Shown in pieces: positions 8,167 through 32,313 of a stretch of DNA of 64,000 nucleotides. Source of the DNA: Lacrimispora indolis DSM 755 (GTDB taxonomy: Bacteria > Bacillota > Clostridia > Lachnospirales > Lachnospiraceae); NCBI RefSeq assembly GCF_000526995.1, contig NZ_AZUI01000001.1, forward strand, positions 5,250,001-5,314,000, given 5' to 3'. Position 1 is the first letter of the stretch, and the number at the start of each line of letters is the position of its first letter. The notes under the pieces are model-generated. The model worked only from the letters and a program-made list of their open reading frames with translations. It ran no database searches and was not told the origin of the DNA. A program made the position numbers and the translations under genes.

Positions 8167-8237
<71 letters not shown>

Positions 8238-8258
8238 CTAAACCTTTTATTTACAAGG

Positions 8259-8335: not shown

Positions 8336-9496
8336 TTACAGTATTTTTTCGATCTTTTTCATTTCCTCGGCTTTCGTATCTGGCAGTACATGCGAATATA
8401 AATCTGCAGTCATGGCAAGGCTGCTATGGCCTAAGATCACCTGCATGACCTTTAACGGAATTCCCTGTTCCAGGCCTCTTGTGGCAAATGTATGGCGTAA
8501 GGTATGTGGAGTTATCGGATCAAATTCCATACCATCTTTCTTGATCTTATTGGCGATTTTTTTCATGTCTACCCGGATCCCAGTATCCCAAAATGCTCCA
8601 CCATCTTCATAAGTTAAGACCATATTTTTTAGGTTATCTTCTTCTTTCCATTTTTCGCCCAGTTTTAACCGGTTTTCAAGCTGCCTATGCCTGATATTTT
8701 TCAGAAGTTCTTCTATATTATTAAGCATTGGTATATCTCTCCGGCTGCTCTCTGTCTTCGGGCTATCCTTGTACCGGCCTGATCCCTCACGAAGATATAC
8801 CAGGGTCCCTGTTACATGGATCAGTTTATTCTTCCAATCAATATCAGACCATTGCAAGCCCGTTATCTCATTGACACGCATGCCCGTTGATAAAGCCATT
8901 ACATAGAAATTATAGTATACAGACCCTTTTGCATATTTCAAAAAAGTATGCTGCTCTTCCAGTGACATTACTCTCTTTTCATTCTGGTTCTTTTTCCTGT
9001 ATTTAGGAAAAACCAAAGCGTCAGCCGGATTACTTATTATCAGCTTATTTTTTTGTGCCTGATTGAACATTCCCGATAAAATAACAAATGCAAAATTAAC
9101 ACGTGACTTAGAAAACCCTTTCTTGTAAAGGTCATTAATGATTTTCTGTAAGGCCTGGGGCTGTATGTCCGTCACTTTCCTTTTTCCTAAAACCGGCCCA
9201 ATGTAGCTTGAATATGTCTGTTTATACGTCTGTATCGTTGAGGCTTTGCTTGTATTGTTCTTATATTGTTCCAACCATGTTTCAAACCAGGCAGAAACCG
9301 TAATATCTTTAGGCTTGCAGAAAATACCATGCTTTAACTCATATTTCATGTTTTCCATTTTCTCCAGCAAGTCTTTCATATTTATATCATATATGGTATA
9401 CCTCTCCCCATCATACTGAAAGCGGGCCATGTATCTCCCGTCAGAACGCAGGGTAATCCCTTTCGGTAACGGCTTCCCGTTCTTATCTACTGCCAT
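8336..9496 (-). CDS. int: Tyrosine recombinase/integrase
   Basis: A 386-residue site-specific recombinase. The N-terminus (to about 60) resembles the arm-type DNA-binding domain of phage and Tn916-type integrases (DGRYMARFQYDGERY). A SAM-like core-binding domain covers about 65-165. The catalytic domain has the first Arg in STGMRVNEITG, HTLRHTFATR (His-x-x-Arg), LGHSS and the nucleophile Tyr in TADLYSHV. It catalyses attP x attB recombination at tRNA-Gly, consistent with its place just inside attL. GGAGTAAAATAAT precedes the ATG. All five catalytic positions are present, so the enzyme looks functional. Confidence 0.95.
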   Translation of the reverse strand: MAVDKNGKPLPKGITLRSDGRYMARFQYDGERYTIYDINMKDLLEKMENMKYELKHGIFCKPKDITVSAWFETWLEQYKNNTSKASTIQTYKQTYSSYIGPVLGKRKVTDIQPQALQKIINDLYKKGFSKSRVNFAFVILSGMFNQAQKNKLIISNPADALVFPKYRKKNQNEKRVMSLEEQHTFLKYAKGSVYYNFYVMALSTGMRVNEITGLQWSDIDWKNKLIHVTGTLVYLREGSGRYKDSPKTESSRRDIPMLNNIEELLKNIRHRQLENRLKLGEKWKEEDNLKNMVLTYEDGGAFWDTGIRVDMKKIANKIKKDGMEFDPITPHTLRHTFATRGLEQGIPLKVMQVILGHSSLAMTADLYSHVLPDTKAEEMKKIEKIL

Positions 9497-11604: not shown

Positions 11605-11688
11605 CTACTTACAATTAACGAAAATAAAGGTAAGTAATGCGACTATGAACATACCAAAGGCCATCAGGTCTTTAAAGTCATATTTCAT
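11605..11688 (-). CDS. Putative holin-like toxin of a type I toxin-antitoxin system
   Basis: A 27-residue peptide beginning MKYDFKDLMAFGMFIVALL and ending FVNCK. It has a short charged N-terminus, one hydrophobic membrane helix and a basic end, which is the pattern of the Firmicutes holin-like toxin family (TxpA-related). The ATG at 11688 is preceded by a strong GGGAGGTGG site. A promoter TTGCAC-N17-TACCAT lies at 11760-11788. Expected action is membrane damage when the antisense RNA is lost, which would stabilise the element. It is too short for ordinary gene callers. Confidence 0.75.
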   Translation of the reverse strand: MKYDFKDLMAFGMFIVALLTFIFVNCK

Positions 11689-11759
11689 CCGCACCACCTC
11701 CCATCTATGTATGATGGAAGGCCAACGCCCTTGCAGTGACACGATTGTTCCATGCCACT

Positions 11760-17657: not shown

Positions 17658-20510
17658 TTACCCACCATTCGTTACCATTCTAACGCCTACGCGCTCAGTT
17701 TCTTTGTTGTTGTACTTATAAACTAACTGGCCGAACTTTGTGCCATCAATGATCAAGTCTGCCTTTGCGGTACCGTTGCCAATTCCGCCCGCTTCCTTAA
17801 TGGCTTCTAATACTGCTTGCTTAATCGTCCCCAACGGTGACACAACCTCATAATCCCGGTTGTTGTCTCCCAGAATTGCCGCGAACTCTCCGGCCTTCGG
17901 GGGCACCACTGTGCCGGTCGCAAGCCGGGGCATATAGGAGGTATATGCAGCGTAGGCAGATGCCGGATAACCAGAGGAAGAAAAGCCACTTCCAGAGAAA
18001 GCCACATGCTTTATATTAAATCCAAAAGATTTCCCGCCGATTTCAGGAACCCAGTCAGGCACATCAAACTTTAATTTATTCAGAATATCAATTATAGAGT
18101 TTATTGCATTCGCCGCAATATTCTTCACACCGTCAAACGCACTCTGAAAGCCATTTTTAATCTTTTCAGATAGATTTGTCAGTGGCCGAACAAGATTACT
18201 CATTGAATTCTCAAGCCCTTGTATTAATCCCTCAATTAAATATCTGCCGATTGCAGCCATAACCGTAGACGGGGAATGAATTCCGAATAAATCCTTGATC
18301 CATTTTATGAATGGTTCAACAATATGTTTCTTGATCCATTCTCCCGGGTTTTCTGAAAACTCTGCAATTCCTTCTGTAATGCCATCCCATAGGGCCTTTC
18401 CCACCACTTTCAGCATTGCCCATGCGGCCTTTACCACTGCTAAAGCTATCCGGGCAACTACATCAACAACACTTGTGAAAACGCTCCACCAGTCAACGTT
18501 TACAAGGAATTCTCCTAAGTCCTGGCCTATAGCTTCCCAGTCAGTTTCTTTTAATGCTGTACGCAGAGTTTCAAGGAGGCCCAATGCAAAATCACTCAAA
18601 GTCTGACCCATATCTGCCCAATCAATATTTGCAAAGAAATTGTTTAGAGTAGTGGAAATTTTCTGTCCTAACCCTGTCCAGTCTATTGTTTGAATAAAAT
18701 TATGTATGCTGCTTATAATTCCTGATATGGTCTTTCCCAGCGTTTCTCCAAACCTTGCCCAATCAATCCTGTTTATCAGCCCCATTATGCCATCAGCCAT
18801 AGCTTTCCCAATAGCCGGCCAGTCTGCAGTTGTCACAAAACCATATAACAGGTCTATGTTTGCCTGGATAAAACTCCCGATTGTAGCGCCAAATTTTTTC
18901 CAATCCACCTCATAAATAAGCCCATTTAGGCCTTTTGCTAATGCTTCCCCTAACTTCACCCAATCAATCCCATTTAACAGAAGATATAAGGTGTTTACAA
19001 TCGTATTAATGCCCTTACCCACCATTCTTCCCAGGGAGTCCCAATTAACGGTTGATACCATGGAGTTGAACAGGCTTACAAACCTTGATACGATTTGAGT
19101 AATTTTATCCCCCACATTATTCCAGTCAATCAATGAACTGATACGGGCTATTGCTGCATTGATTTTTTGCCCCAATAATTCCCCAATACCGGAGAAATCC
19201 TCACTGTTGAACAATTCTCGTATTTTGTCTGCGGCCTTCTGTACATTCTCCGCAACTTCCACTGTTTTAAACATCTGATCCGGTGACGGTCCGGTGTATT
19301 CTTCTTTGTCAGTATTCTTGCCCTGTGCCTGTATCAAGGTATCAAATGCAAATGTGGCCTTTTTGGTTTCCTTTGCAGCTTCCCTTGTAGCTTTTTTTGT
19401 TGCATCAAGACTTGCTGCATAATCTTCTTGTACCTGTACCGCCTTTACAAAAGTATCTTTCCCGGCCAGAGCTGACAGTATTTGCGAAATCCAGTTGTTT
19501 AGCTCCACCATTTTGGATATTAGCCTTGTTAATGCCGGTGTCACAAATTCTATGATGGGCGCAAATGCTGCCGCAAAGCTGTTCTTTAGTGTTGTTAATG
19601 ATGATTTCAATTCAGAAATTGTCTGGTTGGTCTTATCGGAATATCGGGCGAGATTATCAATTCCCTCTTTTACCGCAGACGTGATTCCATTAATTGCCCG
19701 GTAAAACACACTAAATACAAGTGTACGAAAAAGCATACCCAGTAAGTTAAAGCTTTTCCCTGTCTTCTGTGTATTCTTTCTAAGACCTAACAAAGATCTT
19801 GCAATTTGCCCGACTGACTTCATTACACTTTTAGCAAGGTTTAACATCTGTCCTGATGCCCTCTTCGCCAACTTACCAAGAGAAGCAAAAGCCGCCTTTC
19901 CTGCTGCTGCCATACCTTTCAATGCAGCTCCCGCAATAACAGGAAGCTTACTAAATCCAGATCGTACAATATTGGGAATATTAACAATCGTAGAAATCAA
20001 AGTTTTTTTTACTGTGTTCATTCCCCATAAAACAGAATCTTTCAGGCTTACCATTGAGGCCTGACCGGCAGAAGCTGTTGAATTTAGTGAATCAGAAGCC
20101 GTTTTCCCTCCACTGGCAATTCCTTTCAATGCTCCCCCTGCCTGCTTTCCCGCATTTGATACGTTTCCCAAAGAAGAGGCCGCCTGCTGGCTTTCAACAT
20201 CTATTTGATTCATTACAAGTCCTGCCTGCTGCCCATATAGTTGGACTGCCTGCGCATAGTTCCTGATTTGAGCTGCAGACTTACCAAATACCATTTCCAT
20301 TGCCTTTGGATCATAACCGGAGCCAACACCTTGTGATGATTGCCCTACTTCCTTCATGGACTTTGAGAAAACATCTTTTACTCTGTCACCCGCCTTTTGA
20401 GCGCTGGACACTATTTTTTCAAATTCTGATTTTAAATTTCTGGTTCCCTTTTCTGCCCCATCAGTATTTATTTTCGAATCAATAAGTACTGAGCCATCGT
20501 ATTGCTCCAT
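17658..20510 (-). CDS. Phage tail tape-measure protein
   Basis: 950 residues from MEQYDGSVLIDSK (AAGGTGGTGGAAC upstream; the frame is open to 20570). The N-terminus matches the start of siphophage tape measures (SVLIDSKINTDGAEKGTRNL). Residues about 165-300 are Ala/Gly-rich and hydrophobic. From about 450 to 690 there are at least seven degenerate repeats of 35-40 residues with the core IDWxxLGxxIxxxI (for example GIDWVKLGEALAKG, TIDWTGLGQKISTT). The protein would set tail length and form the tail lumen. The C-terminal part has LFGIHSPSTVMAAIGRYL, typical of these proteins. No distal tail, tail fibre or other late genes follow. Confidence 0.88.
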   Translation of the reverse strand: MEQYDGSVLIDSKINTDGAEKGTRNLKSEFEKIVSSAQKAGDRVKDVFSKSMKEVGQSSQGVGSGYDPKAMEMVFGKSAAQIRNYAQAVQLYGQQAGLVMNQIDVESQQAASSLGNVSNAGKQAGGALKGIASGGKTASDSLNSTASAGQASMVSLKDSVLWGMNTVKKTLISTIVNIPNIVRSGFSKLPVIAGAALKGMAAAGKAAFASLGKLAKRASGQMLNLAKSVMKSVGQIARSLLGLRKNTQKTGKSFNLLGMLFRTLVFSVFYRAINGITSAVKEGIDNLARYSDKTNQTISELKSSLTTLKNSFAAAFAPIIEFVTPALTRLISKMVELNNWISQILSALAGKDTFVKAVQVQEDYAASLDATKKATREAAKETKKATFAFDTLIQAQGKNTDKEEYTGPSPDQMFKTVEVAENVQKAADKIRELFNSEDFSGIGELLGQKINAAIARISSLIDWNNVGDKITQIVSRFVSLFNSMVSTVNWDSLGRMVGKGINTIVNTLYLLLNGIDWVKLGEALAKGLNGLIYEVDWKKFGATIGSFIQANIDLLYGFVTTADWPAIGKAMADGIMGLINRIDWARFGETLGKTISGIISSIHNFIQTIDWTGLGQKISTTLNNFFANIDWADMGQTLSDFALGLLETLRTALKETDWEAIGQDLGEFLVNVDWWSVFTSVVDVVARIALAVVKAAWAMLKVVGKALWDGITEGIAEFSENPGEWIKKHIVEPFIKWIKDLFGIHSPSTVMAAIGRYLIEGLIQGLENSMSNLVRPLTNLSEKIKNGFQSAFDGVKNIAANAINSIIDILNKLKFDVPDWVPEIGGKSFGFNIKHVAFSGSGFSSSGYPASAYAAYTSYMPRLATGTVVPPKAGEFAAILGDNNRDYEVVSPLGTIKQAVLEAIKEAGGIGNGTAKADLIIDGTKFGQLVYKYNNKETERVGVRMVTNGG

Positions 20511-20577
20511 GTTCCACCACCTTAAATAAAAAGGCCGACAGCTCCCATTTCTGAAAGCCATCGGCACCACTTAGCCA

Positions 20578-25620: not shown

Positions 25621-26019
25621 TTATTTTATTTCCCCCTGTTGCCTTATATAGTTTCTTGCTGACCGTAAAGCCGCAAAGGTATTTCTGGCTCGGCTTTCCA
25701 GTGTTCTTATAAACTGCTTCACCTCCTGGTCACTGCTCGGCAGGAAATAGCCTCCTCCATCGTGACAGGTAGAAAGTATTACTGCTCCGGCCGTCCTCTC
25801 TCTTGCGATCTCCTTTTGCAGTTCCCGGACATTATCAAACTTAAGGTATGTACATAATTCCTGTGCGCTGATAGCATTTTCCTTTCCTGTCTGTAAAGCC
25901 TCCATAACTATAAACGGTAAGGTTTTGTCAGGTTCTACGGTTGCCGCCGTTTCCTGCATTGGTGTGTGATTCTGGGCTTCTTCCATTAGCCCTGTGCGTT
26001 TTTCTTCCTGCATAGTCAT
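25621..26019 (-). CDS. Winged-helix-like small phage protein
   Basis: 132 residues. Residues about 38-95 look like a winged helix (NAISAQELCTYLKFDNVREL ... AGAVILSTCHDGGGYFL) followed by a basic helix (RTLESRARNTFAALRSARNYI). Proteins of this type precede the replication genes in Lachnospiraceae prophages, in my recollection; function unknown. Its first 50 bases are echoed at 10371-10418. The start overlaps the excisionase-like gene by four bases. Confidence 0.7.
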   Translation of the reverse strand: MTMQEEKRTGLMEEAQNHTPMQETAATVEPDKTLPFIVMEALQTGKENAISAQELCTYLKFDNVRELQKEIARERTAGAVILSTCHDGGGYFLPSSDQEVKQFIRTLESRARNTFAALRSARNYIRQQGEIK

Positions 26020-26216
26020 GCCCCCGTTAATTCATTGATGTACTGATCAATTTTTACCCGGTCCCAAAGAACGCGTTTTCCAACTTTCACCTTGGCCCCA
26101 ATCTCTTCACCCAACTTCATAGCATTATTACGCCCGAGGTTTGTGTAGGCTCGTAACTCTTCCGTATCCATCAAACGGCTTTCTCCTGATACTGTATTCA
26201 TTGCCCTTAGTCTCAT
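26016..26216 (-). CDS. Excisionase-type helix-turn-helix protein, first early gene
   Basis: 66 residues. MDTEELRAYTNLGRNNAMKL is a Xis/MerR-type helix-turn-helix, and VKVGKRVLWDRVKIDQYINEL is the wing with final helix seen in HTH_17 proteins. GAGAGGAAAACAAG precedes the ATG at 26216. It is the first gene of the long leftward unit and is transcribed divergently from the repressor, the normal site for an early regulator or Cro/Xis function. Confidence 0.75.
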   Translation of the reverse strand: MRLRAMNTVSGESRLMDTEELRAYTNLGRNNAMKLGEEIGAKVKVGKRVLWDRVKIDQYINELTGA

Positions 26217-26362
26217 CTTGTTTTCCTCTCTTTCTGTTTAACTTTGTTTAAATAATGATTGATATCAGTCACTATTTATAGTATTATAGTAACATAAATG
26301 TTAACTTTTAGCCATCAACTAAATGTACGCCATATAAAGTTAAGAGCCTAGGAGGATAAATA
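26217..26362. promoter_or_regulatory. Divergent control region (repressor versus early genes)
   Basis: The 146-base gap between the leftward early operon and the rightward repressor. Leftward: TTAACA, 18 bases, TATAAA (near 26303-26274). Rightward: TATAAA near 26331 with a weak -35. The imperfect palindrome GTTAACATTTATGTTAC (about 26289-26305) is a candidate repressor operator overlapping the leftward -35. Confidence 0.5.
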
Positions 26363-27094
26363 ATGGACAATAATGATCAAAACTCATATATTCGTAGAAT
26401 TCAGGGCGAAAGAATTAAAGAATGCATGAGGGACCGTAATATAAAAAGCAATGAACTTGCCGAAGAATTAAACTATACACCGCAACATATAAGTTATGTT
26501 ATCAATGGAAAAAGGCGTCTGACCAAAGATATGGCAATATCTATTGCAGATTATTTAAACAAAACATCTCCAACTAAAACGCAGTTAATAGAAATGCCTT
26601 ACCGTGAACTTTCTGCAGAAGATAAGGAAGAATATGCCGATGATGTTGAAAATGGCTTTGTGGCCATTGGTTATGATGATTTTGATGATATTGATTATAG
26701 ATATTTATTATGTGAAACAGATTGCAAGACTAAATTTGAGCACTTCGAAACACCTCCGCAAAAAGATATAGATACTCTATTAAAAAATGGAATCAAGGCC
26801 ATTCTACACCATTGTGGCTATGACTTAGATATTAAATTATGTCCTGATATCACACGTTTTAAAAACATAAAAAGTAATCCATCTTGTCCATCTTTTGTCG
26901 AGGTGCTGCAGAAGACACTATTAGTAGAAGAGCACTCTAGCCAAATAATCCGCTTATCGGATGGCAAAACCATAGATTTACTACCAGCCGAATTATATCA
27001 ATTATTTCAGGATTATATAAAAGCCATCCTTAGTATAACTGAAAGAGAAATAGAACGTAAAGTATGGTATGATCAGCTCAAATCCACAAAGTAA
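26363..27094 (+). CDS. XRE-family (CI-like) repressor
   Basis: 243 residues, the only large rightward gene in the element. The N-terminal helix-turn-helix (KSNELAEELNYTPQHISYVINGKRR, residues about 28-52) is a typical Cro/CI DNA-binding domain. The C-terminal 170 residues are acidic, with no LexA-type Ser/Lys protease motif, so induction would not follow the classical autocleavage route. It likely maintains the integrated state by repressing the early promoter 150 bases away. The second domain may sense a peptide or an antirepressor (ORF6N and Bro-N genes are in the element). TAGGAGGATAA precedes the ATG. Confidence 0.85.
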   Translation: MDNNDQNSYIRRIQGERIKECMRDRNIKSNELAEELNYTPQHISYVINGKRRLTKDMAISIADYLNKTSPTKTQLIEMPYRELSAEDKEEYADDVENGFVAIGYDDFDDIDYRYLLCETDCKTKFEHFETPPQKDIDTLLKNGIKAILHHCGYDLDIKLCPDITRFKNIKSNPSCPSFVEVLQKTLLVEEHSSQIIRLSDGKTIDLLPAELYQLFQDYIKAILSITEREIERKVWYDQLKSTK

Positions 27095-27200
27095 AAATGA
27101 CACCTAATCTTTCCTTTGATAATTTGCATTTTCCACGGGATTAATAATTAAAGCACTTACCTCCTTGCTCAATTATCAGATTTTTACAAACAAAAAGCGT

Positions 27201-27245
27201 AGGAACAGGCAATCCAAAACTGGACTATCCTATTCCTACGCATTG
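27201..27245. terminator. Hairpin after the repressor gene
   Basis: GCGTAGGAA and TTCCTACGC pair perfectly over nine bases with extra pairing inside. There is no long T run, so it may work as a weak terminator. The rest of 27095-27412 shows no gene. Confidence 0.5.
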
Positions 27246-27412
27246 TTATATCCTCCAAGTTGCGTCCTGGAGTGCTTGTCAATATTTTATATGCTTATAA
27301 ATATAATGCCAGATGGGGAGGGGAATTCAAGCGAAAAGTCTTATTTTAAACACTTTTTTAGACACCATGATACCTGATACACCAATGATCTAAAACTTAG
27401 GATTGACAATTA

Positions 27413-28258
27413 TCAATATTCTTTGAATTCTGCTAAATACTTTTGAAAGAAATCAGAATCCTCACCACTAACATCCCCAAGCCATGTAAACATCATTAAA
27501 ATTTCAATAGACTTCTTTTTACCATTCAAAAATGGTTTGTTTCCAAATCTACTATAATATCCATTTATATTAAATAAATTTGTTCTATTTTTATAGTTAT
27601 ATTTATAGATATGGCCTCTATATGGGTGATCTGATTTGTTTTTGCTACCAGAAGGCAACATATCTACATTGTTATAAAATTCTTCCGTCAAATACTTCTT
27701 AATAGCAACGGCTAAATTTACATTATACTTGATATATGTATCATTAAGCCATGTGGTAATCTTTTCGGAAATTTGAGGAAAGCCAAAGTACTCATATTCT
27801 CTTTTTGTAACTACAGCATGATATTCTTTTATAAACTGGTATAACCTCTCTGTTTCATCTCTTAAACAAGGACGTTTCTTTATCAACTCAGCATAGCAAT
27901 TATAGGATATTGTGCGAAATTCACTATCTTCAAATGTAAGAAGAAAACCAGATGTATTATCACAGTATTTTTGTATGGTTTTACTTACTTGATGACCTGT
28001 TTCGTCATATATTGTCACAAACCATCTACTAAGTTCGGGAGAATACTCTCTAAGAGCTTTCTCATATTTATTTATTCGTTCATTTTCTTCTGCCGAGTGA
28101 TCTTCAGCACCTTCCAAGGGAAGATAATTGCTGAAATATTCAAATATGTATTCAATTGACTTTTTAATGTTGCTTACCTTTAGCTCCATATCAAATTCAT
28201 TTAGATGATCTTCCATTTTTCTTTTGGCTATGTATTCTTCTAATCTTATCATACTCAA
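27413..28258 (-). CDS. Unknown cargo protein next to Kiwa-like genes
   Basis: 281 residues, AT-rich, mixed charged and aromatic. No transmembrane segment, signal or named motif is seen. Notable are a Tyr-rich middle (REYEYFGFPQISEKI; KYNYKNRTNLFNINGYYSRFG) and a Trp/Phe-rich C-terminus (MMFTWLGDVSGEDSDFF). It lies between the repressor and the Kiwa-like pair, in the zone where prophages and satellites keep defence or other lysogenic-conversion genes. A defence role is inference from position only. Confidence 0.65.
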   Translation of the reverse strand: MSMIRLEEYIAKRKMEDHLNEFDMELKVSNIKKSIEYIFEYFSNYLPLEGAEDHSAEENERINKYEKALREYSPELSRWFVTIYDETGHQVSKTIQKYCDNTSGFLLTFEDSEFRTISYNCYAELIKKRPCLRDETERLYQFIKEYHAVVTKREYEYFGFPQISEKITTWLNDTYIKYNVNLAVAIKKYLTEEFYNNVDMLPSGSKNKSDHPYRGHIYKYNYKNRTNLFNINGYYSRFGNKPFLNGKKKSIEILMMFTWLGDVSGEDSDFFQKYLAEFKEY

Positions 28259-28306
28259 CCTCTTTTATAATTAGCATATTTCAAGCAAGGATATTGCATC
28301 ACCTAT

Positions 28307-28320
28307 TCCTGATCTGGTGT
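28307..28320. repeat. 14-bp direct repeat, left of Kiwa cargo
   Basis: TCCTGATCTGGTGT, identical to 30341-30354. The two copies bracket a 2.0-kb block holding the small membrane peptide and the KwaA/KwaB-like genes. Confidence 0.6.
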
Positions 28321-28460
28321 AAGTGTTAACGGCTCCACAACCATTTTATTATCTCTATCCAGAAGTAAAACTTTCCAGGTTCTGCAATCAGCGTGCTCTT
28401 CAGCATTTTACTATAATTCACCCAAGGAAAATAGACGGGGTAGCCCGCCTCTGAGATAAT

Positions 28461-28541
28461 CTATCTTCTTGTTATAGCTATAATAATAGCCGTTACTACT
28501 ATAATGGCAACCGCTACGCCTGCAAGCATCATAATTGACAT
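28461..28541 (-). CDS. Small hydrophobic membrane peptide
   Basis: 26 residues, MSIMMLAGVAVAIIVV ... IAITRR: one membrane helix with a basic end. GGAGATAGCTA precedes the ATG at 28541. The composition resembles small toxin or membrane-modulator peptides. No antisense promoter as clear as that at 11443 is seen, so type I toxin status is unproven. It is separated from KwaA by a terminator. Confidence 0.5.
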   Translation of the reverse strand: MSIMMLAGVAVAIIVVTAIIIAITRR

Positions 28542-28590
28542 TAGCTATCTCCTTTGCTTTTCTTTTATCATATCACTGATAGCAGTAAAA

Positions 28591-28617
28591 GAAAAGAGAC
28601 ACCGGGTGGGTGCCTCA
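28591..28617 (-). terminator. Terminator after the KwaA-like gene
   Basis: On the minus strand GAGGCACC, loop CACCC, GGTGTCTC, then TTTTCTTTT. The stem begins within the stop codon of the KwaA-like gene. Confidence 0.75.
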
Positions 28618-29151
28618 ATCTTTATTACTTTCCTTTCGTGCAATGAAAATGTCATTCGCTACATAATAACCCTTTAACTTATTAATCCTTTTTAATTCAG
28701 CATACTTAATATTTGTGATTACCACAACTTCTGAATTAACCCTATAAGCCAAGAACCCCGCGATAGACCACAACGGATTAAGATATAAAAGGTTAAGCCT
28801 GATATACAGATATCCTATCAACAAAAACATTATAAAATTAACAGCAATAACTCCGTAATCTTGAAAATCTATTGATAGAATAGGAATAATATAAGTCATC
28901 ATATAGCTTATAATTGTATCATCTGGTCGCTCCAACTCAGTAATTATTAATTGCTTTGTTCCAGTACCTCTTAGAATTATCAAAGTACTTAACAGAGATA
29001 CTAAAATACCTATGCCCATGCATATTAAAAAAGCGACTTTCTTTATTGTTAATACGTCGAAAACCGTTTTCAATTTACCAAAATGCAAGATAAGAAGCAT
29101 AATATACAATGGGAAATAAGAAGAAATAAACATAGACATTTTTACTGTCAA
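28615..29151 (-). CDS. kwaA: KwaA-like membrane subunit of a Kiwa anti-phage system
   Basis: 178 residues with four predicted membrane segments (about 9-27, 38-60, 84-95 plus 100-122, 124-137). The segment YIIPILSIDF followed by GYLYIRLNLLYLNPLWSIAGF and a short cytoplasmic tail match the pattern I know from KwaA. In the Kiwa system a membrane-embedded KwaA senses phage adsorption or injection and works with KwaB. The start is unsettled: the frame opens with a TTG at 29151, 18 bases from GGGAG. A plausible ATG with MQNK lies upstream, one base out of frame, so a single-base shift in an A run may have altered the N-terminus. Assignment rests on the partner and topology. Confidence 0.75.
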   Translation of the reverse strand: MTVKMSMFISSYFPLYIMLLILHFGKLKTVFDVLTIKKVAFLICMGIGILVSLLSTLIILRGTGTKQLIITELERPDDTIISYMMTYIIPILSIDFQDYGVIAVNFIMFLLIGYLYIRLNLLYLNPLWSIAGFLAYRVNSEVVVITNIKYAELKRINKLKGYYVANDIFIARKESNKD

Positions 29152-29173
29152 TCGTTTTATTTTGCATCACTCC

Positions 29174-30076
29174 CTAAATTTTATTATCAATTCCTGGTTT
29201 TTCTTTTATTAAGCTCATATAATAAGAATCTCTAGCTAATCTTATTATATCCATTAATTGCCCTTTGTGTTCATAAATTATGCCTTCTCTTGGAACTGCT
29301 TGTATTTCTACTTGTAACTCAAACAACTCTATAGTTTCAACAACGTTACTAAAATTGTCAAAACAATTTTCCAAGTCATTTTCCTCCTTAAGCATTTTTG
29401 TCAAAACCTTTTGGATTCTCATGTCATTCATACAATCTTCTTCAAATAGATCCATATTTATAATTTTATCGGCACAACGAATGCGGTCAATTGCAGTTTG
29501 CGCTTTATTAACAAATTGCTCATTTAAACGAAATATTCTTTCCAAAGCCACATGACTTAAAATTGCAATCTCATCTTCAAATACGATAATATCTATTTGC
29601 CCATCGAGCCCCAACATTTTACTATCGATTCGATTCAGCATATTTCCATGGAATGCAGCTATCAGTCCTTTAGAGTAAAGGCGCTTAAACTTTGTAACGC
29701 GTCTAAACAATTTGATGCTATTACCCTCATTATCTTCAAGACTCAAGCAATAAAAGGAAAAATTGTCTGCTTCTTCTTCTGCGTCTTCCACGTTACCAAT
29801 ATCAAGACTTCCTATAACTTCTTCGAAATTCCCAACATAGTCAATATTGCAAGTCTCGATTGTTCCATCCCTATACCCCGTTGGATTAAATTCTACCTGC
29901 TCATATTCTTGAAAATCTTCAATATAACTTCTTATGTATTCACGCAACGTTCCGAATATAGTAGGATCAACTTCCGGTGAATAAGAAATATATCCCTCTT
30001 TCTTTTTCCTTACAAAATATAGCGCCTGAGTCAAATCATTTTTAATCAACAGTTCACTAACGCGATGCAAATTCAT
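29174..30076 (-). CDS. kwaB: KwaB-like (DUF4868) subunit of a Kiwa anti-phage system
   Basis: 300 residues from MNLHRVSELL (an ATG two codons earlier is too close to the GGGGGG ribosome site). The central part has FRRVTKFKRLYSKGLIAAF, then DIIVFEDEIAILSHVALERIF, which is the DUF4868 signature as I recall it. Downstream are helical segments with an acidic C-terminus. KwaB is the cytoplasmic effector that binds DNA at the membrane complex. It is followed 22 bases later by the KwaA-like gene. In E. coli the order is kwaA-kwaB; here it is reversed. TATAAT lies near 30105 upstream. Confidence 0.8.
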   Translation of the reverse strand: MNLHRVSELLIKNDLTQALYFVRKKKEGYISYSPEVDPTIFGTLREYIRSYIEDFQEYEQVEFNPTGYRDGTIETCNIDYVGNFEEVIGSLDIGNVEDAEEEADNFSFYCLSLEDNEGNSIKLFRRVTKFKRLYSKGLIAAFHGNMLNRIDSKMLGLDGQIDIIVFEDEIAILSHVALERIFRLNEQFVNKAQTAIDRIRCADKIINMDLFEEDCMNDMRIQKVLTKMLKEENDLENCFDNFSNVVETIELFELQVEIQAVPREGIIYEHKGQLMDIIRLARDSYYMSLIKEKPGIDNKI

Positions 30077-30340
30077 AATCATCCCCCCATCGACATTTTT
30101 CTTTATTATATCACACGTCTAATGGGAAAACGTTCCAAAAAATTGTAGATTGCTTTGTCTAATTAGTATAGAACATTTGTTCTGATTAGTAAAATACATA
30201 TTAGTTATGGCTACCATTCATTGGTATAAGTAAAAGATACTCTATCTCTAGGAGGTCTTTTACCCGGATAAAATATGAGAAAAGTATAAACCGGACGAAT
30301 CAGCCACCAAACTGTTACACCTGACTGCCTCAAGACCCCG

Positions 30341-30354
30341 TCCTGATCTGGTGT
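30341..30354. repeat. 14-bp direct repeat, right of Kiwa cargo
   Basis: TCCTGATCTGGTGT, identical to 28307-28320. Confidence 0.6.
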
Positions 30355-30422
30355 TAGGGTCACTAGCATTCCACGAAAAACTTAATTTCAGTCCTCGTGA
30401 CATAAGGAATATTTATTCCCTT

Positions 30423-30521
30423 TTGACACCACTTTGACACCACTTTCTATAAATACTGATAAAACATGATAAAAAGAAAACCACCAGTTTTCTATGAGAT
30501 AAAGCATGATAGACCATGATA
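30423..30521. repeat. Arm-type repeats near attR
   Basis: A tandem TTGACACCACT pair (30423-30444) repeats the pair at 8305-8326. CATGATA then occurs three times (30465-30471, 30505-30511, 30515-30521), with a related TGATAAA at about 30458. These are likely integrase/excisionase arm sites adjacent to the core. The remaining sequence from 30083 to 30422 shows no gene. Confidence 0.65.
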
Positions 30522-30534
30522 AAACCAGTTTCAA

Positions 30535-30586
30535 AGAACATCAGCTTCCCAAGCTGAGGAGGCGGGTTCGATTCCCGTTATCTGCT
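30535..30586 (+). repeat. attR: displaced 3' part of tRNA-Gly
   Basis: 52 bases, the original chromosomal 3' portion of tRNA-Gly with the canonical T loop TTCGATT. It lacks the acceptor 5' strand and most of the D arm, so it is not a functional tRNA. Confidence 0.93.
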
Positions 30587-30595
30587 TTTTATTTT

Positions 30596-30637
30596 ACCCT
30601 GGTAAATGCAAGAATTCCTTGTAAATGCCAGGTTTTT
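30596..30637 (+). terminator. Original tRNA-Gly terminator, now beyond attR
   Basis: CCTGG...CCAGG with inner TGCAAG/CTTGTA, followed by seven T. It would have ended the tRNA transcript before the element inserted. Confidence 0.7.
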
Positions 30638-30816
30638 TTGTTTTTCCCAGGCCCGGCCCCCTCTTTGATTCTGCTGCTGGAAATCCAGTGAACGCTGCTG
30701 TCCCATGAGCTCCGGTTAAGCCAGTGTTTCGGAATATTTAATCAAAATGTCTTCATCTATTTCCGCTGCTTTCCTTCTTTAATTTAAAAAATATGAATAA
30801 AAATTCATCATAATGA

Positions 30817-30845
30817 TTGAAATATACATTTTTATGTGTTATAAT
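30817..30845 (+). promoter_or_regulatory. Strong orphan sigma-A promoter
   Basis: TTGAAA (30817-30822), 17 bases, TATAAT (30840-30845). No protein gene follows on the plus strand before the convergent gene ending at 31109. Confidence 0.7.
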
Positions 30846-30852
30846 TTAGATG

Positions 30853-30917
30853 AATGTTTAGCCACATTCATGTAATCTTTGGTAGGGTCCGACTAAATAT
30901 AGTCGGGCTCTTTATAT
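30853..30917 (+). ncRNA. Possible short RNA ending in a CCGACT hairpin
   Basis: A transcript from the promoter at 30817-30845 would reach the stem CCGACT/AGTCGG (30889-30905) followed by GCTCTTTATA within about 65 bases. The T run is imperfect. I recognise no RNA family. The surrounding 30.6-31.06 kb has no gene. Confidence 0.4.
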
Positions 30918-31064
30918 ATTCCGTTTTAGGGCTCCACTTTCTTTTCACCGACAAATCTCCCCAGCCCCGGGTCCAGACACAAACTCCCATGCTTAAACGC
31001 CGACACGGTCCTGTCTCACATTGAATATTTCGGGAACACGCTCCGGCTGGGCCTCTTCCGGCAA

Positions 31065-31606: not shown

Positions 31607-31848
31607 GGCACAGTCTAAACTTTTATCCGGCTATTGGGCGTATTATATTCCTGCTTTATATTACCATATTGCAAAAAACTGCCAGCTATCCTTTGTCTTG
31701 GTCACAATCTGCAGCATTAGCCAGCCTAATAAATACCTTTTGCACTTCCTGCAGCAGGAAATTCAATTCTACATCTCCTTTTTTCTGAAATTCCCGATTT
31801 TTTATAACAGTGTTTTTTATGACACATATATTAGAATAAAATGTATAA
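31607..31848. other. Intergenic region between divergent genes
   Basis: 242 bases, AT-rich. It must contain the promoters of the leftward flavin protein gene and the rightward cupin gene. No clear operator is seen. Confidence 0.3.
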
Positions 31849-32313
31849 ATGGTGACTAACCGCATGTTTATTTCCGAAAACTCAAATCCTGATGCTGGTA
31901 ATATGCCAACCTTTCCATCAGATTATGGACCGAACCCCTTTGTTATTGATCTTAACAAAGCGGCACAGCAAAACGATAATTTCCGCTCGGCTTTATGGAC
32001 AGGAACTTATTTACAGGTGATTCTGATGAACATTCCTGTGGGTGAGATCATTGGAATGGAAGTCCACCCTGATCACGACCAGATCTTACGAATAGAGGAA
32101 GGTTTAGGCCTGGTTCAGCTGGGGGCAGATAAGTTCTCAATGTACGGACAATATCTGGCATTTACAAATTATGCAGTATTCGTACCCGCAGGTACATGGC
32201 ATAACATCATTAATATTGGCAATGAGCCGCTTAAAATCTCATCTTTTTATGCTCCTCCCAATTACGAATCGGGTATGGTCCAGAGAACGAGAATCCCAGA
32301 TTCTGCCTTGTAA
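31849..32313 (+). CDS. Cupin-domain protein
   Basis: 154 residues as the longest frame; an internal ATG (MFISENSNPDAG, 31864) is the more family-like start, though neither has a strong ribosome site. A single cupin barrel is visible: metal ligands in GMEVHPDHDQILRIEEG and the second motif PAGTWHNIINIG. The family resembles small mannose-6-phosphate-isomerase-like cupins of Firmicutes. The substrate is not predictable; stress or sugar metabolism are the usual contexts. Confidence 0.82.
   Translation: MVTNRMFISENSNPDAGNMPTFPSDYGPNPFVIDLNKAAQQNDNFRSALWTGTYLQVILMNIPVGEIIGMEVHPDHDQILRIEEGLGLVQLGADKFSMYGQYLAFTNYAVFVPAGTWHNIINIGNEPLKISSFYAPPNYESGMVQRTRIPDSAL

Follow-up and report, generated by a model that had tools for sequence, protein, structure and literature searches.

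The window analysed here is a 64,000-nucleotide stretch of the Lacrimispora indolis DSM 755 genome (contig NZ_AZUI01000001.1). It carries an element of ∼22.3 kb inserted in tRNA-Gly(CCC), and the right end of this element is formed by two genes of the anti-phage system Kiwa, kwaB and kwaA. The element is bounded by a 52-bp, 98% identical repeat, the 3′ part of tRNA-Gly, whose copies at 8186-8237 and 30535-30586 place the pair next to attR, as the preliminary description had proposed. The features are as follows:

8167-8238: intact tRNA-Gly(CCC) gene
8186..8237 (+): attachment repeat inside tRNA-Gly(CCC)
8336..9496 (-): tyrosine integrase of the element, left end (PF00589, 5.6e-27; phrog_1, 7.1e-78)
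28295..28406 (-): decayed tail of a prophage endolysin-like gene, downstream of kwaA (72-78% identity over 90-103 bases)
28461..28541 (-): ORF for a 26-aa peptide with a single membrane segment, with an AAAGGAG ribosome site
28596..28616 (-): terminator-like hairpin with a T-rich tail, at the kwaA stop
28615..29151 (-): kwaA, membrane protein of 178 aa (PADLOC PDLC00208; NF041622, below cut-off; solved KwaA)
29174..30082 (-): kwaB, 302 aa, likely start at 30076 (PADLOC PDLC00231; PF16162; phrog_11123; fold matches)
30335..30374 (-): short sequence upstream of kwaB, probably also a remnant of that endolysin tail, encoding VTLTPDQDGVL
30535..30586 (+): attachment repeat, right end of the element (attR)

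Both ORFs lie where they had been described, on the minus strand, with 22 bp between kwaB and kwaA; the terminator described after kwaA corresponds to the hairpin and T-rich tail at its stop (28616-28596), and the DIIVFEDEIAILSH segment of KwaB is present, starting at residue 164. The likely start of kwaB (30076), which is also the one given in the preliminary description, is the third codon of its ORF and is the start in most aligned relatives, while kwaA starts at TTG 29151 or ATG 29139. Four terminator-like sites are found in 27000-30700, compared to an average of 1.6 in shuffles. The G+C content is 45.1% in the host flanks, 39.5% in the element and 31.9% in the kwaB-kwaA pair.

Identity of KwaB and KwaA

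The 302-residue protein is KwaB. Nearly its whole length is matched by the PADLOC model PDLC00231 (6.1e-104), it matches the PHROG family phrog_11123 (1.7e-67), and the DUF4868 match on which the proposed assignment had been made to depend, PF16162, is above its cut-off (3.3e-27, 96.1 bits versus 26.3). When the predicted KwaB model (mean pLDDT 84) was compared with the PDB by fold, all six matches at E ≤ 0.001 were to solved KwaB (1e-10 to 1e-8), with the next match at 0.26. These fold matches have TM-scores of ∼0.5, an rmsd of 8-10 Å and an identity of 11-13%, and a profile of 31 KwaB sequences reaches solved KwaB by sequence at only 0.004; thus, details of this protein such as DNA-binding residues may differ from those of solved KwaB. 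A PDB sequence search with the single KwaB sequence returned no solved KwaB, only chance matches to prion proteins.

The membrane protein is KwaA, with thirteen PADLOC KwaA models matching it, the best of which is PDLC00208 at 3.6e-43; it also matches NF041622 at 4.8e-18, below the cut-off of that model. The single sequence reaches solved KwaA at 4e-5, and a profile of 26 sequences does so at 7e-12. A simple hydropathy scan finds three hydrophobic regions, and the AlphaFold2 model (pLDDT 77) has long helical regions at residues ∼2-22, 36-61, 77-92 and 99-118, followed by a small beta part; since the long helical regions in the model number four, the earlier ‘four-helix’ label is a fair one for the predicted structure.

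If the membrane protein instead belonged to an unrelated family, its neighbourhood with KwaB would be accidental. A Pfam scan did find no family for KwaA in the scanned copy, and no shared family for the KwaA alignment; a protein search labels the KwaA relatives PF28043. However, the thirteen PADLOC models argue against an unrelated family, no such family matched the protein better in the searches run, and the kwaA-kwaB pairing is kept, with KwaA relatives adjoining kwaB, in 55 of 58 other loci. We assign a negligible probability to an accidental neighbourhood.

The carrier element and its right end

A comparison with empty-site relatives had been suggested, and an empty site is indeed found: among the stretches beside tRNA-Gly in six same-genus genomes, the site is empty in two (L076 and L077) and the downstream sequence differs in four. 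At both empty sites a hairpin resembling the one in the right flank studied here comes after the tRNA, and sequence similar to 31822-32264 lies 113 bases further on. The left flank has a match in all 24 other same-genus genomes (short and weak in G409), and KwaB was found in none of these 24; in G321 and G418 the matches of the left and right flanks are ∼1.5 kb apart. With its integrase, its attachment repeat and the empty site in relatives, this is an integrated phage-type element, and it is present in IMG/VR as IMGVR_UViG_2524614838_000005. An Rfam search of 26000-31000 yielded nothing beyond a tRNA fragment at attR that scored below threshold and a single chance match.

A PHROG scan of 26 ORFs of the element (KwaA, KwaB and the 26-aa peptide included, several short ORFs being outside the scan) identified an integrase, anti-repressors, a sigma factor, a tape measure protein, a DnaB helicase, a DnaD-like loader and a repressor. 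None of the 26 was an intact endolysin or one of the terminase, portal and capsid genes that mark a complete prophage; because these last three were not found, the element is probably a prophage remnant, or a hitch-hiker of other phages. The tape-measure-like gene (970 aa; 17658-20570, minus strand) lies in an element without detectable head genes. Elsewhere in the element, a 45-codon ORF (11605-11742, minus strand) ends in a hydrophobic segment and by eye presumably resembles short holin-like toxin peptides; similar reading frames adjoin endolysin tails in sister genomes.

The sequence at 28295-28406 matches five places in three same-genus genomes. One of these places forms the tail of an open frame of 321 aa, which by eye resembles an amidase with choline-binding repeats, i.e. 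a prophage endolysin. On the other side of the pair, all 11 residues encoded at 30335-30374 are as in the tail at L069, and the DNA scores 39 against L069 and 27-33 against the other four places; the best of 100 shuffles, scored against L074, reaches 33, equal to the real score there. As the DNA score is only modestly above that of shuffles, 30335-30374 is a probable, not a certain, endolysin-tail remnant. With such a remnant on one side and probably another on the other, the Kiwa cassette may have entered a slot between the endolysin and att. Among 30 related loci scanned, Kiwa lies beside a tRNA-Ile in two (L002 and L009) and in none of the other 28.

The state of the element bears on whether the pair might be a silent passenger that no longer serves in host defence. 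The lack of terminase, portal, capsid and intact endolysin among the 26 scanned ORFs is consistent with such decay, as is the reduction of the endolysin-like gene to fragments, but the kwaB and kwaA frames are full length and retain the invariant columns of their own alignments. We therefore regard a silent pair as unlikely.

Two further ORFs lie downstream of kwaA. The 281-aa ORF at 27413-28258 (minus strand) was rejected as a Kiwa partner because, among the fetched loci, it is present only in those of this element; it has 25 relatives, a Pfam DUF6688_C match below cut-off, NCBIfam matches far below their cut-offs, and no PADLOC or PHROG family. The ORF at 28461-28541 sits between two terminator-like hairpins and could encode a highly hydrophobic peptide. 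Its leader RNA folds into a stem that covers the AAAGGAG site and uses part of the kwaA terminator, and this fold is better than those of shuffled sequences (z -2.9; 2 of 200 shuffles did as well). Because the ribosome site can pair into this alternative hairpin, the peptide might be made only under some conditions, as a third Kiwa part that is controlled by read-through and modulates or guards the KwaA-KwaB complex. We consider this extremely unlikely. A search behind kwaA for hydrophobic ORFs of 18-60 aa, over up to 900 bases in 37 loci (less sequence being available in L013, L042 and L046), found the peptide only in L028, which is this element, and it was rejected as a conserved third part; L009 and L037 have unrelated short hydrophobic ORFs in this position. 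A scan of viral contigs for the coding pattern of the peptide likewise found this element only, a trial pattern search in the window gave no match, and two same-genus genomes that have no peptide ORF match the kwaA terminator region over its first 24-58 bases.

Gene order and the KwaB tree

Kiwa of the E. coli type has kwaA first, and the reversed order of this pair had been put forward as a useful variant. We compared the order in 58 other KwaB loci, comprising 26 genome contigs, 10 viral contigs (besides this element's own), 14 genomes from Pfam searches, 4 phage or plasmid records and 4 further plasmid records; the matched records H6 and H9 are outside this sample. Partners that were first chosen by eye or annotation were confirmed by the KwaA profile and PADLOC. 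The order is readable in 55 loci (unreadable in L045, L055 and L056), with kwaB first in 45, six of them identical in DNA to another locus, and kwaA first in 10, namely Emticicia, Microvirga, Halobacterium and seven Pfam-found genomes; the 45 versus 10 is no frequency, since most loci were drawn with a profile of this KwaB's own clade. The less biased Pfam searches, which had hits in 7 of the 396 further genomes searched within the family and in 7 of the 397 searched within the phylum, gave four loci with kwaB first, seven with kwaA first and three unread. When a KwaB from a kwaA-first locus (L050) was the query, four plasmid records and no phage record were matched.

We built a tree from 43 KwaB of the sampled loci and the KwaB of this element. 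Twelve kwaB-first loci are outside the tree: L031, L032, L035, L038, L041 and L046 as identical copies, L017 and L037 as split frames, L052 as a fragment, and L026, L034 and L047 as presumed close to retained rows. The identical partner of L041 is L026, which leaves the neighbouring L027 as the sole representative of that sequence in the tree. In the clade that holds this KwaB, kwaB is first in all 32 rows, with support of 97/97, and the tree requires two changes of order, compared to an average of 9.2 when the labels are shuffled (none of 500 shuffles was as low). The kwaB-first order also occurs outside this clade, at L042 and L044. The long branches are chiefly those of kwaA-first rows, and the placement of those rows is unsure. 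As a separate observation, the KwaB of L008, on the Histophilus somni contig NZ_JACHGQ010000004.1, is very close in the tree to a Peptoniphilus KwaB; its presence in the record of a Gram-negative species would reflect recent transfer or contamination.

A pair in this order is already in print. Table 3 of PMC11514479 gives the Kiwa of Streptococcus thermophilus 90730 as (kwaB, kwaA), genes 0688 and 0689; because they stand without the ‘c’ mark of other entries, we read them as plus strand with kwaB first. The text of that paper reports 5- and 4-log reductions for the lactococcal phages sk1 and c2 and a reduction of ∼1 log for streptococcal phages. Like the pair described here, the system is listed as adjacent genes, kwaB then kwaA, but it lies in a CRISPR-linked defence island and not at a prophage end. 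Literature searches limited to an open library listed no paper that deals with Kiwa gene order in its title or abstract opening.

The order could nevertheless be the sign of a Kiwa variant that differs in function; KwaB might, for instance, be synthesised first and act before membrane docking. In favour of this, an old division of the KwaB tree is mirrored in gene order, and a difference in function between the clades could accompany it; KwaA and KwaB also both miss the NCBI equivalog cut-offs, which were made for the other type (65.6/100 bits and 34.8/200 bits). However, these cut-offs are naming limits for one branch and no defining feature of the system, the order is not unique to the clade, as L042 and L044 demonstrate, and the printed S. 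thermophilus pair protects against phages (PMC11514479). A distinct variant is, in our judgement, very unlikely. This is a genuine Kiwa pair, and its gene order is the usual one for the clade; of the preliminary interpretation, the Kiwa identity and the place beside attR stand, but the reversed order as a useful variant does not.

Related Kiwa systems and the role of the pair

Megablast of this Kiwa cassette against phages gave no match. Some phages carry Kiwa pairs of their own. The Clostridioides phage CD1801 (MW512570.1; 46% KwaB identity) resembles this element in having kwaB then kwaA on a temperate-type phage carrier, but is deposited as a complete phage genome, whose annotation calls the Kiwa genes ‘putative bacteriocin synthesis protein’ and ‘hypothetical protein’ and, in the circular record, the next gene ‘transposase’. 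In the Mammaliicoccus phages phi6223 and phi6228, kwaB is again followed by kwaA, and Kiwa lies downstream of the holin and endolysin genes (records circular); these are complete phage genomes, with ∼31% KwaB identity over 78% of the protein. The text of PMC12322248 includes a test of an S. thermophilus Kiwa, Kiwa is among the systems named at a P4-like satellite hotspot (PMC9122126) and in a D. pigrum island (PMC8547433), and it is mentioned in PMC13190303.

The solved Kiwa (9mrg, 9mrx, 9mtn, 9nyu, 9o0i) shares with this pair the KwaB fold, the KwaA sequence family and the two-gene operon, but differs in its low sequence identity, as in the KwaB fold alignments. By analogy with that system, as its mechanism is outlined in a review (PMC12904381), KwaA would assemble into tetramers in the cytoplasmic membrane and detect the entry of a phage there; dimers of KwaB, attached to these tetramers, would bind the DNA as it comes in and halt both its replication and its late transcription. 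If this pair behaves as its family does, it would assemble into such a complex, with the same sensing and DNA binding, and would protect the lysogen.

We consider it highly probable that the pair is a typical member of a Firmicutes-rich, kwaB-first Kiwa clade, and that a defective prophage-like element in tRNA-Gly carries it as a cargo operon at its att-site end. The kwaB-first order is then no curiosity: in the examined loci, gene order goes with an old division of the Kiwa family. The NCBI Kiwa equivalog models miss this pair; the PADLOC models reach it. The pair adds one more defence cargo at the att-site end of a prophage-like element.
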